Assembly (NCBI RefSeq): GCF_002210295.1
Contig: NZ_MWQH01000010.1
Coordinates: 62,001-126,000 of the forward strand
DNA length: 64,000 nt
Direction: 5' to 3'
Origin: Fibrobacter sp. UWB5
GTDB taxonomy: Bacteria; Fibrobacterota; Fibrobacteria; Fibrobacterales; Fibrobacteraceae
Shown: positions 4,451 to 63,009 of the stretch, piece after piece
Layout of the letters: every line of letters starts with the position of its first letter
Numbering within the stretch: the stretch's first letter is position 1
Notes under the pieces: generated by a model
What the model was told of the DNA's origin: nothing
Databases searched by the model: none
What the model saw: only the letters and a program-made list of their open reading frames with translations
Program-made: the position numbers and the translations under genes

Positions 4451-5188
4451 ATGAAAAAGCAGTTGTTGGCCCTTTGCGCCGCCACTATGATGATGTCCAT
4501 GACCGCTTGCGACAGCAAAATGGACCCGAATGATCCTCAGTCCGTGCGCAAGTACCTGACCAAGCAGCAGATTGCCTTTACCCCGAACCAGTTCGTTTCT
4601 TATGCCGTGAACGGCGATACTGCCAAGATGACCCTCTTCTTGCAGGCTTCTTTCGAAATTGACGCTCCGGCCGATAACGGCAACAACGCTGTGGCTATCG
4701 CTGCTAACAAGGGCAACATGGTTGTGCTTAACTACTTGTTCGATCATGGTGCTAAGGCCGACGTGAAGAACGGCAACGGCGAAGCCGTGCTCGACAACGC
4801 CGTGATGATGGGCAACAAGGAAGTGGTGAACCGCCTCTTGACTCAGCTCAAGGCTGAAGGCGCTGAATCCCAGACGCTCGGTACTGCAGTGCTTCTCGCT
4901 GCCAAGTCTGGCAAGGTTGATATGCTCGAAATTCTGGCCGATGCCGGTGCTCCGCTCGATTCCCGCAGCGCTGACGGCTACCTCCCGATTCACTGGACCG
5001 TGAAGAACGGCAACTACGACGCCATGATGTTCCTCATCAACAAGGGTGTCGACGTGAACGCCAAGTGCGGTCAGGGTTATTCTGTGCTCGACTGGGCCAC
5101 CAACGAAGGCTATACCCGCCTGATCAAGGCCCTTAAGAAGGCCGGTGCCAAGAATACTCCGCAGTACTTCAAGGATTCCAAGAAGTAA
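4451..5188 (+). CDS. Ankyrin-repeat lipoprotein
   Basis: Encodes 245 residues. The ATG at 4451 is chosen because GGAG lies 8-10 nt upstream and it starts the signal MKKQLLALCAATMMMSMTAC, with lipobox SMTAC. After ~60 residues come four to five ankyrin repeats: NAVAIAANKGNMVVLNYLFDHGAKADVKN, a degenerate copy, LGTAVLLAAKSGKVDMLEILADAGAPLDSRS, GYLPIHWTVKNGNYDAMMFLINKGVDVNAKC, GYSVLDWATNEGYTRLIKALKKAGA. Ankyrin stacks bind proteins; here binding would be periplasmic. No enzymatic domain is seen and the partner is unknown. Confidence 0.85.
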   Translation: MKKQLLALCAATMMMSMTACDSKMDPNDPQSVRKYLTKQQIAFTPNQFVSYAVNGDTAKMTLFLQASFEIDAPADNGNNAVAIAANKGNMVVLNYLFDHGAKADVKNGNGEAVLDNAVMMGNKEVVNRLLTQLKAEGAESQTLGTAVLLAAKSGKVDMLEILADAGAPLDSRSADGYLPIHWTVKNGNYDAMMFLINKGVDVNAKCGQGYSVLDWATNEGYTRLIKALKKAGAKNTPQYFKDSKK

Positions 5189-50773: not shown

Positions 50774-50846
50774 GGTGCCATCGTCTAGTGGTCCAGGACA
50801 CTGGCCTCTCACGCCGGTAACAAGGGTTCGAGTCCCTTTGGCACTA
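50774..50846 (+). tRNA. tRNA-Glu (anticodon CTC)
   Basis: A 73-nt cloverleaf. Acceptor stem GGTGCCA/TGGCACT (G-U first pair), D arm with GTCTAGTGGTCCAGGAC, anticodon stem CTGGC/GCCGG around loop CTCTCAC (anticodon CTC), T arm AAGGG-TTCGAGT-CCCTT, discriminator A. The CCA end is not encoded. It reads GAG codons. Confidence 0.95.
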
Positions 50847-56109: not shown

Positions 56110-57951
56110 ATGATTCATTTTAAGTATAAGCGTATCGACAAGTCCGAGTCCAAGTACAAGAGACTGAGTCGTATTTATTACAACCGCATGTTTCCCAAGC
56201 GCCAGGATGCGCTCAAGGTGGCTTGGTCGGTTGCCGCGGGCGTTTTTATCGGTATTTGGCCCACGATCGGTGTCGCAATTATTTTGACTGTTGCCTTTTG
56301 TGCCTTGTTCAGGCTTCCGAAGGTGCCTGGGATTGTTTCTTCTTTCGTTGCTAACCCTCTTACCCAGTTCGGTTTCTTTTACCCCACGGGTTACGCTATC
56401 GGATGCAAAATTTTAAACCCCGAAAAGATCAATTTCGACTTCCTTTCGGAATTCGAAGGCCTTTCGTTCAAGAACTGCATTACGGTAATTTCACACCTGT
56501 GGCATGATGCGGCGGGGCATTTGGCGGCCTTTATGATAGGAATCACGATTGTGGCTGCCATTGGCGGTGCAATCTTCTTTTTCCTGGCCTATTTTATTGT
56601 AAATTATCGCAAGAAAAAGTGGCTGGATGCAAAGACAAGCTACATCCAGAGCTTGATTGCCGAAGACGAAGCTTTAATTAAAGCAGCACACAAAGGAAAA
56701 CACCCTATGATGCACATTTACCCGTTCAAGGCGCTGCGCCCGGTGAATCCGGCCGAAGCCGAAACGATTTCTGCCCTCCCGTACGACGTGATGAATCGCG
56801 CCGAAGCCAAGCAAATGGCCGAAGGGCTCCCGCATTCCTACCTGCGCGTGACCCGTGCGGAACTGGAACTCCCTGATTCCGTGGATGCTTACGACCCGAA
56901 AGTCTATGCGCATGCTCGTGAAAACTTGGACAAGATGATTGCCGACGGCGTGATCGCTTACGACAAGAAGCCTTGCCTCTACGTTTACCGCCAGACCATG
57001 AACGGTCGCGAACAGTACGGTCTCGTTTGCTGCGTGCCCGCTGCCGACTACTTCAACGGCATTATCAAGAAGCACGAACTCACTCGCGCCGACAAGGAAG
57101 AAGACCGTTTGCGCCATGTGCTTGCCACCAACGCCAACACCGGTCCGGTGTTCCTGACCTACCGCGATCAGGGCCAGTTTGATGTGTTCGGTGCCGTGAC
57201 CAAGCGTAAGCCCGTGTATGACTTTGTGAGCAAGGGTGACGGCTTTGGCCACACGGTTTGGATTATCGACGATGACGCCGAAATTGAAGCCATCCGCAAG
57301 TCTTTCGAAGCCGTTCCGGTAAGCTACATTGCCGACGGTCACCATCGCAGTGCAGCCGGTGCCCGCGCCGCAAGCTTCCGCGCTGAACAGAACCCGAACA
57401 ACACCGGTGACGAAGAATACAACCGTTACCTCGCCATCCTTTTCCCGAGCACCCAGCTCAAGATCCTCGACTACAACCGCGTGCTCAAGGACCTGAACGG
57501 TCGTACTCCGGAACAGCTCATGGACGAAATGAAGAAGGTGTTCGACATTGCCGAACTTGACAAGATGCAGAGCCCGGCCAAGCAGAACCAGGTGAACTTC
57601 TACATGGGCGGCAAGTGGTACGCTTGCACGTTCAAGGCCGAATACCTCAAGAACCTCGGCCCGGTGGACAGCCTCGATGTGGCTCTCCTCCAGAAGCTCA
57701 TCTTGAAGCCGCTCTTCGATATCGACGACCCGCGTACTTCCAAGCGCATCGACTTCGTCGGTGGCATTCGCGGTCTCGGCGAACTCGTGAAGCGCGTTGA
57801 CAGCGGTGAATGCGCCTGCGCCTTCGCTATGTATCCGACGACTCTCGATCAGCTCATGAATATCGCCGACGCTGGCGAAATCATGCCGCCGAAGAGCACC
57901 TGGTTTGAACCGAAGCTCCGCGACGGTCTCCTGGTTCACTCGCTGGACTAA
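56110..57951 (+). CDS. DUF2062 membrane domain fused to DUF1015 domain
   Basis: Encodes 613 residues as one open frame. Residues ~1-180 are a DUF2062 membrane domain (FPKRQDALKVAWSVAAGVFI, WPTIGVAIILTVAFCALFRL, SSFVANPLTQFGFFYPTGYA, FMIGITIVAAIGGAIFFFLA). Residues ~200-613 are a DUF1015 domain (IYPFKALRPVNPAEAETISA, LPYDVMNRAEA, IADGHHRSAAGAR, GECACAFAMYPTTLDQLMNI). DUF1015 proteins are normally separate, about 410 residues. An AAAGGAAAAC sequence just before the internal ATGATG at 56707 could allow independent translation of the second domain. The role of either domain is unsettled. Confidence 0.85.
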   Translation: MIHFKYKRIDKSESKYKRLSRIYYNRMFPKRQDALKVAWSVAAGVFIGIWPTIGVAIILTVAFCALFRLPKVPGIVSSFVANPLTQFGFFYPTGYAIGCKILNPEKINFDFLSEFEGLSFKNCITVISHLWHDAAGHLAAFMIGITIVAAIGGAIFFFLAYFIVNYRKKKWLDAKTSYIQSLIAEDEALIKAAHKGKHPMMHIYPFKALRPVNPAEAETISALPYDVMNRAEAKQMAEGLPHSYLRVTRAELELPDSVDAYDPKVYAHARENLDKMIADGVIAYDKKPCLYVYRQTMNGREQYGLVCCVPAADYFNGIIKKHELTRADKEEDRLRHVLATNANTGPVFLTYRDQGQFDVFGAVTKRKPVYDFVSKGDGFGHTVWIIDDDAEIEAIRKSFEAVPVSYIADGHHRSAAGARAASFRAEQNPNNTGDEEYNRYLAILFPSTQLKILDYNRVLKDLNGRTPEQLMDEMKKVFDIAELDKMQSPAKQNQVNFYMGGKWYACTFKAEYLKNLGPVDSLDVALLQKLILKPLFDIDDPRTSKRIDFVGGIRGLGELVKRVDSGECACAFAMYPTTLDQLMNIADAGEIMPPKSTWFEPKLRDGLLVHSLD

Positions 57952-57971: not shown

Positions 57972-58002
57972 AAAAGGTCGCGATAATATCGCGACCTTTT
58001 TT
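57972..58002. terminator. Strong terminator after the DUF1015 gene
   Basis: GGTCGCGATA and TATCGCGACC form a near-perfect palindrome (57976-57996), flanked by AAAA and TTTTTT. Confidence 0.9.
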
Positions 58003-58049
58003 GCTGTATCAATTGGGCATGAAAGTTTTTTGGAAACCACATGGATTAG

Positions 58050-58070
58050 AAATGCTTAACGGCATTTTTT
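58050..58070 (+). terminator. Second, weaker hairpin with T-run
   Basis: AAATGC (58050-58055) pairs with GCATTT (58062-58067) over a 6-nt loop, followed by TTT. It is short and AT-rich; it may be a backup terminator. Confidence 0.4.
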
Positions 58071-58079
58071 AACAATATA

Positions 58080-58176
58080 ATTGTCACACTGATTGGGAAT
58101 CACTAACGTGATTCCTGTTAAAAACAAATTATTATATATAGATTTTACGTTAGTAAAATCGAATTCGTGTGACAAT
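58080..58176. other. Structured intergenic element with two hairpins and a closing inverted repeat
   Basis: ATTGTCACAC (58080-58089) and GTGTGACAAT (58167-58176) are perfect inverted ends. Inside are hairpin A, GGAATCAC-TAAC-GTGATTCC (58096-58115), and hairpin B, GATTTTAC-GTTA-GTAAAATC (58141-58160). The two loops are complementary, and ACTAACGT (58102-58109) is the exact reverse complement of ACGTTAGT (58147-58154). It lies in the non-coding gap between convergent genes, 10 nt from the lepB stop. Function unknown: RNA element, sRNA, or mobile-element remnant. Confidence 0.7.
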
Positions 58177-58186
58177 CTAAAAGAAT

Positions 58187-59386
58187 TTACTTTGTGGAAT
58201 CGCTCTTGTTTTCGACTTCTTCATTGTCAGAAGTATTCTCTTCTGAATCTTCTTCTGGAGTCAAGAGCGAGAGGACGTATTCGATTGACTTGTCGAGGAA
58301 TTTCTTGGCCGGAACGATGATTCGGTTCTTGAAGCGGTCCGGCCATTCCAAGTAGCGCCCGATAAAGTCCTTGTGCGTAAAGTATCCGAGCTCGCGTGAA
58401 TCGGGGCAGCTGGAGCCCTTGATGCATGTCATGTAATAGCAGTCTTCTTCGATGACAATCATGTTCAAGGGCTCATCCAAGTATTTTTCCGGTTCTTCTT
58501 TTGCAGGGGCAGGCTTTGCAGGTGCCGCGACGGCAGAATCCTTTTTCGTCGAATCTTTCTTTGTCGTGTCGGCCTTTGCAGTTGCGCTGGAATCGGCGTG
58601 TGCGACTTTCACGGAATCGGTCTTGACGGAATCACCCGCAATAGAGTCTGCAGAAGACGTGGGCGGGGGAGTGAGTTCGAGCTTGGCGGGCTTCAGGCGG
58701 AACAGTTCGCGCTTGATTTTAATGGGGGCGTTGCCCGGCTCGGCCTGACGAATCTGGAGCTCGATCAGGTAGCGGTCTTGCCACGGCAAATAGTCGACTT
58801 CCTTAAGGCTTACCTGGCGGTTTGCGATCTTGGTGGCTCCCACGCGGTCAATGTTGATTTCGCGGTCGCCCTGCCAGAGCGTCGACTTGATTGCAATCTT
58901 TTCGCCATGGGTATGCAGGTAGGCTAAAATGTAGTCTTGTTCGACCTCATTTAATTTATCAAAATAAAGCGTATCGCCGGCCTTGGGAACGTAAATCGTT
59001 TGGCTCTGGATAAAGGCGTCTTCGCCCTTCCACTTGTAATTGCGGTGCGGCGTACGCACGCGCCCTTTGTCTGTGATTTCAATGGAGTCGCCCGGCATGG
59101 CGAGCACCCTGCGTACCATGGTTTCGCCGCTTTTGAGCGAAAGCCAGACAATATCCTGTTCCTTGATTTTGGAAAGACATTGCGGTAGTTTGCACATCCA
59201 ATGGATAGACTGTTCCTTGAACTTGGGCGTCATCGACGCATCCATAATCTTGACAGGCGCAATCGCATAAAGGCGTGCGACAAAGGCTGCTCCGCAAATG
59301 AATAACAAGAACAGGAACAAGAGAAAGATATGGCTTTGCGAATTCTTTCGCTGCAGCCTTTTCACCTTTCTCGAAAGCCTGGACAT
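58187..59386 (-). CDS. lepB: Signal peptidase I-like protein, catalytic Lys replaced by Arg
   Basis: Encodes 399 residues. One N-terminal membrane helix (HIFLLFLFLLFICGAAFVAR) is followed by the S26 fold. The nucleophile box is MDASMTPKF (Ser51). The lysine box, normally VKRVxGxPGD, reads MVRRVLAMPGD, with Arg92 at the general-base position. Box E-like DSRELGYFTHKDFIGR keeps DSR. An Ala/Lys/Ser/Pro-rich insert (~265-295) interrupts the periplasmic domain, and the C-terminus is acidic. lepB next to lepA is the classic arrangement (5-nt gap). Either a divergent active enzyme or an inactive paralogue. Confidence 0.82.
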   Translation of the reverse strand: MSRLSRKVKRLQRKNSQSHIFLLFLFLLFICGAAFVARLYAIAPVKIMDASMTPKFKEQSIHWMCKLPQCLSKIKEQDIVWLSLKSGETMVRRVLAMPGDSIEITDKGRVRTPHRNYKWKGEDAFIQSQTIYVPKAGDTLYFDKLNEVEQDYILAYLHTHGEKIAIKSTLWQGDREINIDRVGATKIANRQVSLKEVDYLPWQDRYLIELQIRQAEPGNAPIKIKRELFRLKPAKLELTPPPTSSADSIAGDSVKTDSVKVAHADSSATAKADTTKKDSTKKDSAVAAPAKPAPAKEEPEKYLDEPLNMIVIEEDCYYMTCIKGSSCPDSRELGYFTHKDFIGRYLEWPDRFKNRIIVPAKKFLDKSIEYVLSLLTPEEDSEENTSDNEEVENKSDSTK

Positions 59387-61899: not shown

Positions 61900-63009
61900 A
61901 TGAGTTCTAAGAAAGTATCGTCCAAGGCTCCGGCAAAGAAACCCGCAGCAAAGCCTGCCAAGAAGGCCGCTCCGGCAAAGCCCGCCAAGGCCCCTGCTAA
62001 AGCTGTGAAGAAGGCTGCTCCGGCAAAGCCAGCAAAGGCCCCTGCCAAGAAGGCTGCTCCGGCAAAACCGGCTCCGAAGGCTCCGGCCAAGAAGGCCGCT
62101 CCGGCAAAACCGGCTCCGAAGGCTCCTGCCAAGAAGGCCGCTCCGGCAAAACCGGCTCCGAAGGCTCCGGCCAAGAAGGCTGCTCCGGCAAAGCCCGCTC
62201 CGAAGGCGAAGGACTCTAAGAAGACTGCTCCGGCAAAACCGGCTCCGAAGGCTCCGGCCAAGAAGGCCGCTCCGGTTAAGCCCGCTCCGAAGGCCGCTCC
62301 GGCTAAGGCTGCAAAGCCCGCTGCTCCGGCAAAGCCTGCCAAGGTTCAGCCCAAGCAGGTCGAAAAGCTCGAAGTAAAGCCTGAAGTCAAGGCCGACAAG
62401 GCTCCGAAGGCTGGCAAGGCGAAGAACACCAAGCCGGTCGAAACGGCCGAACCCGTTGATCAGCCGGCTGAAACTCCGGTTGTCGAAAAGAAGTCCAAGA
62501 ACGCTCCGGACTACGCCTACGCCGTGCTCCTGCAGGGTGTGAAGCGTCTTTCGAAGACTATCATGTTCGTGAAGGTCGACGAATCCGAAGACCGCTCCAA
62601 CAAGAAGAAGATGTCCAGCGATGTCAAGAACCTTGACATGAAGCCGACCTCTGCAATCCGCCACAAGTCGTCCCTCGCCGAAGAAACGCAGGAAGAACTG
62701 ACGGAACGCATTCTCAAGGAACTCGAAGAACAGAACAAGATGTTCGAACGCGAAGCCGCCACGCAGATGTGCACGCGCTGCAACCGCAACCTCGTGTCTC
62801 CGGAATTCTGGGTCGACAAGCATCTCGGCTTCTGCGAAGAATGCGCCGCCATCCTCAAGCTCGGTCAGTCCAAGGAAGCCCGCAAGGTGGAATACCAGCT
62901 CGGTGCCATGGACGGAGACTCTCTGGATGAAGAAGATGATGATATTATCGGACCGGACGCAGACGACCTGAAGGAAGCTGAAGAAGATCTCGCCGAAATG
63001 GAAGATTAA
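61900..63009 (+). CDS. Histone-H1-like Lys/Ala/Pro repeat protein with C4 zinc finger
   Basis: Encodes 369 residues. Residues 1-~160 consist of H1-like repeats (APAKPAPKAPAKKA), very basic and disordered. An acidic/neutral stretch to ~205 is followed by a conserved-looking domain (DYAYAVLLQGVKRLSKTIMF...). A C4 zinc finger at ~292-320, CTRCNRNLV...GFCEECAAIL, resembles the DksA/TraR finger. The C-terminus is strongly acidic (DEEDDDIIGPDADDLKEAEE). Likely DNA- or RNA-polymerase-associated; exact role unknown. A 42-bp tandem repeat underlies the N-terminus. Confidence 0.8.
   Translation: MSSKKVSSKAPAKKPAAKPAKKAAPAKPAKAPAKAVKKAAPAKPAKAPAKKAAPAKPAPKAPAKKAAPAKPAPKAPAKKAAPAKPAPKAPAKKAAPAKPAPKAKDSKKTAPAKPAPKAPAKKAAPVKPAPKAAPAKAAKPAAPAKPAKVQPKQVEKLEVKPEVKADKAPKAGKAKNTKPVETAEPVDQPAETPVVEKKSKNAPDYAYAVLLQGVKRLSKTIMFVKVDESEDRSNKKKMSSDVKNLDMKPTSAIRHKSSLAEETQEELTERILKELEEQNKMFEREAATQMCTRCNRNLVSPEFWVDKHLGFCEECAAILKLGQSKEARKVEYQLGAMDGDSLDEEDDDIIGPDADDLKEAEEDLAEMED
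62047..62214 (+). repeat. 42-bp coding tandem repeat (about four units)
   Basis: Units start at 62047, 62089, 62131 and 62173, each encoding a variant of KKAAPAKPAPKAPA; the fourth is degenerate at its end. The period is a multiple of three, so copy-number change would alter tail length without breaking the frame. Confidence 0.85.

Follow-up and report, generated by a model that had tools for sequence, protein, structure and literature searches.

The intergenic DNA between two convergent genes of Fibrobacter sp. UWB5 contains a 97-bp palindromic element, at positions 58080-58176 of the 64,000-nucleotide stretch that we analysed (the window), and the question that it raises is what kind of element this is. 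An earlier note had offered three answers: a three-way junction with a kissing loop, a switch between two structures or the remnant of a small mobile element. The geometry on which these answers were built was found as described: perfect 10-bp terminal inverted repeats (ATTGTCACAC at 58080-58089, + strand, and GTGTGACAAT as read on the + strand at 58167-58176, - strand), two 8-bp hairpins (58096-58103/58108-58115 and 58141-58148/58153-58160), complementary loops TAAC (58104-58107) and GTTA (58149-58152), and an alternative 8-nt pairing of 58102-58109 with 58147-58154. The third answer held up, as the element belongs to a family with dispersed copies, presence or absence in close relatives, a patchy range across phyla and gene-bearing longer members. 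We consider it likely that the window element is a miniature, gene-less version of a GxxExxY-bearing mobile palindromic element, in a family that resembles the Rickettsia palindromic elements (RPEs) and the miniature inverted-repeat transposable elements (MITEs).

The family is built from one repeat unit. Each unit starts with a 13-nt foot, TGYCACACNGATT, followed by one base and an 8-bp stem closed by a C-G pair around TAAC, here written C[TAAC]G. Units are arranged solo, in clusters or as convergent pairs, and the window element is such a pair. Its left, A-type unit (58082-58115, + strand) consists of the foot TGTCACACTGATT (58082-58094) and the hairpin GGAATCAC[TAAC]GTGATTCC (58096-58115); its right, T-type unit (58141-58174, - strand) consists of the foot TGTCACACGAATT (58174-58162) and the hairpin GATTTTAC[TAAC]GTAAAATC (58160-58141). 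The right unit was matched by a covariance model of the repeat, R1, with an E-value of 2.2e-14 (G000:C10:120141-120174, where G000 is the genome of the window). The A+T-rich spacer between the hairpins (58116-58140) occupies the position of the GxxExxY gene in longer members. Spacers between paired hairpins are mostly 6-31 nt long, with a mean G+C content of 14%. An ortholog of the complete element lies in the nearest relative, G004 (L083:1907-2004). A third unit with the identical loop, overlooked in the earlier note, is located 47 bp upstream of the left unit (58035-58069, + strand). It is degenerate, with the foot AACCACATGGATT and the hairpin AGAAATGCT[TAAC]GGCATTTTT, and its counterpart in G004 (L083:1862) has the intact foot TGCCACACGGATT and the stem AGAAATGCC/GGCATTTTT.

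The stems come in dozens of different sequences. Inner stem pairs were formed at frequencies of 0.99 and 0.96, compared with 0.56 and 0.55 when the arms were shuffled among units. The units for this test were picked by the foot alone or by foot plus loop, never by pairing; loci L191-L230 were counted in the first group, and neither group had been chosen on the pairing of those positions. An alignment of 30 pairs contained 86 double-changed cells versus 22 after shuffling (0/500), and the unit alignment contained 69 versus 22. Evolution that conserves structure this strongly means that a shape of RNA or single-stranded DNA (ssDNA), not a sequence, must be recognised. The foot is nearly invariant, with a double change in just one of its 13 pairs, which argues that feet are recognised as sequence. 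Terminal-stem covariation was not used as evidence, as only 1 of 13 pairs shows it and genome habits may account for the Y3 match. On these alignments, the natural reading would be that the foot is recognised by sequence and the hairpin by shape. Folding of the window element was much stronger than expected by chance on both strands, with z-scores of -7.0 and -6.7 as RNA and -6.3 and -6.4 as DNA, and none of 200 shuffled sequences folded as well.

Relatives preserve the proposed junction shape (95.7% of cells paired, double changes in 13 pairs), and this part of the first answer stands. The kissing loop does not. A loop variant on one side without compensation was present in 12 of 72 pairs, loop complementarity of at least 8 nt occurred in 12 pairs against 16.9 expected, the window copy being one of these few, and many units are solo. 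The loops complement each other because a pair contains the constant C[TAAC]G loop twice, once in each orientation. As loop changes are uncompensated and complementarity is not enriched, we dismissed the kissing loop and, on the identical counter-evidence, the switch between two structures. Pairs are also heterotypic: none of the 72 had equal stems, where 8.5 were expected, and the typical pair combines one GATTTTNC-type stem with one purine-rich stem. This rule is explained equally well by selection against perfect palindromes and by shared ancestry from a single heterotypic element.

Several variants of the unit were seen. Units at Treponema GxxExxY elements (L368, L369, L376) have the 3-nt loop TAC in place of TAAC. 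Sister subfamilies keep the TAAC loop but have either a different foot, AACAARCGGATTTGTTC, or an internal mismatch, TC/TC (L139:6040-6120, L103:1345-1424, L105:1440-1525, L387), and one of them flanks a GxxExxY gene. A second, larger module stands behind the same foot, with GTAC...GTAC followed by AAATGCTAGGCTC...GCCTTACGCATTT; its hairpin is conserved, imperfectly paired and about 60 bp long (L094:1376-1538, L018:1067-1275, L099:1446-1530 and 4831-4930).

Copies with covarying structure exist both in the genome of the window and in relatives, as found with the covariance model. A BLAST-type search of the UWB5 genome returned more than 12 further partial copies, and a pattern of the foot alone gave 35 matches versus 2 for the reversed control pattern. 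Unit counts by R1 were 32 in this genome, 63 in G004, 19 in G005 and 96 in a Neisseriaceae metagenome-assembled genome (MAG). It found 3 to 58 units in five Treponema genomes; T. bryantii NK4A124 had 36 and T. saccharophilum DSM 2985 had 28. Among the matches listed for the exact pattern in GTDB, most were from Treponema and other spirochaetes, Fibrobacter and ruminant-gut Neisseriaceae. The element is thus carried by three phyla of rumen bacteria (Fibrobacter, Treponema, Neisseriaceae). Its distribution within the genus Fibrobacter is patchy, with many copies in G004 and G005 and few or none in most congeners. The element at the window locus is common to G000 and G004 only; it is absent from G009, where the adjacent gene is 95.7% identical, and from the other congeners examined. 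Solo units are also missing at orthologous sites in G009 or G004. Carriage by phage was seen in 1 viral contig out of 2.9 million.

At one site orthologous between two Fibrobacter species (L009:521-597 and L080:1375-1462) the left unit is the same and the right halves are entirely different, as in a replacement of half an element. We rejected the idea that matches spaced by about 2 kb and 1.5 kb are the two ends of one insertion sequence, since each match is an element of its own and the genes that lie between are ordinary ones. We found no description of these repeats in Fibrobacter, Treponema or the rumen in the literature searched, a search that left most subscription papers outside.

Most copies are intergenic, but some are within genes. 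Among the 196 distinct elements or solo units, we counted 34 at positions well within open reading frames (ORFs) of at least 200 codons, compared with 63% of random places. Insertion into genes is depleted, yet it is tolerated in frame. In-frame open copies are present in CarB, GltB (glutamate synthase), AsnB (asparagine synthase), MmeI and an ABC transporter, all confirmed as hosts by Pfam. According to predicted translations, the element-encoded peptides fall between or within Pfam domains (for example, LSHGFETSNDVS...DFALAKSNPCDN). In GltB, identical sites are occupied in two species by elements of opposite orientation.

This behaviour is like that of the Rickettsia and Wolbachia palindromic elements, which, in the available sections of two sources, are short palindromes dispersed in intergenic regions and, in frame, within housekeeping genes of unrelated function (PMC10969869, PMC2996958). 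In-frame RPEs are translated as an inserted peptide, according to the same sections (PMC10969869, PMC2996958). The elements differ in sequence, in hosts (here gut Fibrobacter, Treponema and Neisseriaceae), in the constant C[TAAC]G loop and in the long conserved foot, a comparison made by description. Long forms with a nuclease gene, as found here, are not described for RPEs in those sections (PMC10969869, PMC2996958). By analogy of behaviour, we would liken the element to RPEs and not file it among them.

The link to a gene comes from the long forms. About ten distinct loci, in Fibrobacter and in Treponema, have a GxxExxY gene enclosed by a convergent pair of units within 453-481 bp; a T-type unit comes first, then the ribosome-binding site and the gene, and an A-type unit closes the element. 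The start codon is located 10-20 nt past the T-type unit in all T-type long forms read. The window element and the gene-bearing members end alike, in convergent feet with C[TAAC]G hairpins. Because the window copy has a 25-nt spacer with no GxxExxY gene, and its genome has no PF13366 match, we describe it as the gene-less form. Some short copies (L190) keep an apparent ribosome-binding site and gene start, which suggests that short copies derive from long forms. In about 390 loci, none of the ORFs between units was of transposase length; these ORFs were GxxExxY genes or, in Fibrobacter, lipoprotein genes only.

The product of the long-form gene is a full member of the GxxExxY family, scoring 149.6-150.1 bits against TIGR04256 (cut-off 35) and 139.7-141.2 bits against PF13366 (PDDEXK_3; cut-off 22). 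The protein has 113-129 residues, and E22, D62, E72, K74, Q86 and Y90 are invariant among 20 proteins. The PD-(D/E)XK active site with its QxxxY motif is intact, as expected of an active nuclease, and QxxxY marks single-strand nucleases. The AlphaFold model has a predicted local distance difference test (pLDDT) score of 93.7. Its best match in the PDB is SSO0001 (4ic1; E 5e-4, TMq 0.63), a Cas4 nuclease, followed by weaker matches to MGME1 (with ssDNA, rank 6), AdnAB and RecE. The modelled fold is closest to Cas4. A sequence search of the PDB with the nuclease profile returned chance matches only (S100 proteins, E 0.21 or worse). With the Cas4, RecB and MGME1-type ssDNA nucleases the protein shares the predicted fold and the invariant E...D...ExK...Q...Y series; it differs in its length of only 113-129 residues.

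In a motif-free score, inverted flanking repeats bounded 44 of 57 GxxExxY loci, compared with 0/29 and 3/357 control loci. In Treponema, CACRGAT-like motifs pointed inward on both sides in 29 of 35 loci and outward in 1 (controls 0/30 and 2/595), a pattern that was partly chosen on the 35 loci scored. As a general signature of GxxExxY genes, strict CACRGAT was rejected, as it is confined to Treponema and Fibrobacteraceae, and the motif-free score superseded it. In other Fibrobacterota, GxxExxY genes are bounded by lineage-specific inverted arrays of short repeats (CACAGAG, CACGAAA, GCAAAGG, CAGGATT; L389, L394, L395, L388, L411, L412). In Fibrobacter sp. RGIG5926, an abiF RNA (RF03085, 41.4 bits, above the gathering score; L099:3839-3875) has GxxExxY elements at a distance of about 1-2 kb.

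The GxxExxY nuclease may be what moves the element. An element end would turn single-stranded or extrude its hairpin as a cruciform, and a Cas4/RecB-like GxxExxY nuclease from a full-length copy, present or past, would recognise foot plus hairpin and cut. Copying or repair could then complete the insertion without a target duplication. The short form retains the two ends, separated by an A+T-rich spacer.

Several observations weigh against this picture of a mobile element with a GxxExxY gene. Target-site duplications were looked for at the ends of 72 pairs and not found, as flank identity was at expectation for lengths of 2-9 nt and offsets of -4 to +4. Joining the flanks to locate empty sites made presence and absence visible and gave no base-precise boundary. 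PF13366 genes are missing from G000, G004, T. bryantii NK4A124 and XBD1002, G044 and G045, most of them unit-rich, so there is no driver in cis in these genomes today. A lost or transient driver must therefore be assumed, as for many MITEs, and GxxExxY could be a mere passenger. Direct flank repeats were also above controls at GxxExxY loci (22/57), an excess explained by flanks that are often tandem arrays, and in an independent set of Fibrobacterota CACRGAT was found in 5 of 28 loci. The cross-phylum range rests partly on MAGs, although mis-binning cannot account for the whole of it, as units are present in cultured T. bryantii and T. saccharophilum.

The alternative that survives best, which we still consider unlikely, is an element of the REP/REPIN type (repetitive extragenic palindromic sequences), moved by a Y1 (HUH) transposase of the RAYT (REP-associated tyrosine transposase) group, IS200/IS605-type, that would read foot plus hairpin on ssDNA, with GxxExxY as a passenger. 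The anatomy is indeed REP-like, with a short conserved tag beside a hairpin whose stem varies freely, in solo copies and inverted pairs (PMC3733652), and G004, G043 and G044 each have one Y1_Tnp gene. However, such a gene is missing from 7 of 10 genomes (G000, G005, two T. bryantii strains, T. saccharophilum, G045 and G047), several of them copy-rich, and where the three Y1 genes are present no foot occurs within their 3.3-kb loci. The 13-nt foot TGYCACACNGATT is also neither the GTAG nor the CGTC tag of REPs (PMC3733652).

An ordinary MITE, derived from a DDE insertion sequence with TGYCACACNGATT ends and with hairpins that are incidental or regulatory for the host, we judge improbable. Terminal inverted repeats, a short non-coding interior and dispersed, patchy copies are MITE-like, and bacterial MITEs such as ERIC, Correia/NEMIS, RUP and others are likewise dispersed non-coding elements of about 100 bp with terminal inverted repeats (PMC10969869). 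The family differs from them in having no TA or other target duplication, two covarying internal hairpins and common solo half-elements. Covarying hairpins need a structural role, solo units have no second end, and no ORF of transposase length lies between units in the about 390 loci. Full-length relatives do exist and carry a PD-(D/E)XK nuclease, which may have a role in movement. No known transposon end was matched, in by-name searches limited to Y1/RAYT and Rfam.

A cis-regulatory or non-coding RNA kept for host function, whether as a three-way junction, kissing loops, a switch or a terminator/attenuator, is in our view very improbable. The strong fold and the structure kept by covariation speak for it, as do some solo units that lead into T tracts like intrinsic terminators (L095) and the short distance of 10 bp from the element end to a stop codon. 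Against it, units of the same kind turn up at unrelated locations and, in frame, within proteins, and they are gained or lost between close relatives; the loops change without compensation, and the structure is equally good on both strands. At the gathering score, the single Rfam match in the window is a tRNA (50774-50846), and at E<=1 Rfam gave nothing relevant over six related loci.

Recombination sites or cassette boundaries like those of integrons (attC) are hardly credible: convergent units spaced about 1.0-1.5 kb do bracket Fib_succ_major (TIGR02145) lipoprotein genes at several Fibrobacter loci (L010, L188, L266, L267, L278, L086) and element halves were apparently swapped at one orthologous site (L009 versus L080), but the lipoprotein association was judged by eye only, against 67 and 85 lipoprotein matches per genome, the base before the loop varies freely (CACTAAC, TACTAAC) and does not keep the attC R-box consensus RYYYAAC/GTTRRRY, and the units form inverted pairs of about 85 bp, not cassette arrays.

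At the window locus, the flanking genes are convergent as the earlier note had said, and encode a DUF2062 and DUF1015 protein (56110-57951, + strand) and a signal peptidase (Peptidase_S26; 58187-59386, - strand), with domains assigned by Pfam. The stop codon of the latter (58187-58189) is the one 10 bp from the element. The several strong terminators that had also been claimed amount to just one, at 57972-58004 (+ strand), a perfect 14-bp inverted repeat followed by a T run; it belongs to the upstream gene and is outside the element. The window copy probably lies inert in the 3′ region of the signal peptidase gene, and it may secondarily help to shape transcript 3′ ends. Elsewhere in the window, the ORF at 61900-63009 (+ strand) has a long N-terminal lysine/alanine/proline run (AKKAAPAKPAP) and C-terminal CxxC pairs, and looks DksA/TraR-like by eye.

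The kind of element, RPE-, MITE- or REP-like, is already known; this family, its range across phyla and the link of the GxxExxY family to element ends appear new, as they were not found in the literature searched, most subscription papers being outside the search. The available sections of two sources describe no enzyme for the movement of in-frame palindromic elements such as RPEs (PMC10969869, PMC2996958). The present family offers a testable candidate for such movement, with copies with and without the gene, shared ends, cultured hosts and a small nuclease whose active site is intact. It is also a case of a mobile element that three phyla share within a single habitat, the ruminant gut. More tentatively, GxxExxY proteins might be the mobilising enzymes of a large class of transposons, with a minimal Cas4-like nuclease acting alone on inverted motif arrays or foot-plus-hairpin ends, and with gene-less RPE-like and short-repeat elements as their offspring. 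Should the link to GxxExxY be borne out, a widely annotated family would gain a function, and many arrays of short inverted repeats would be explained.
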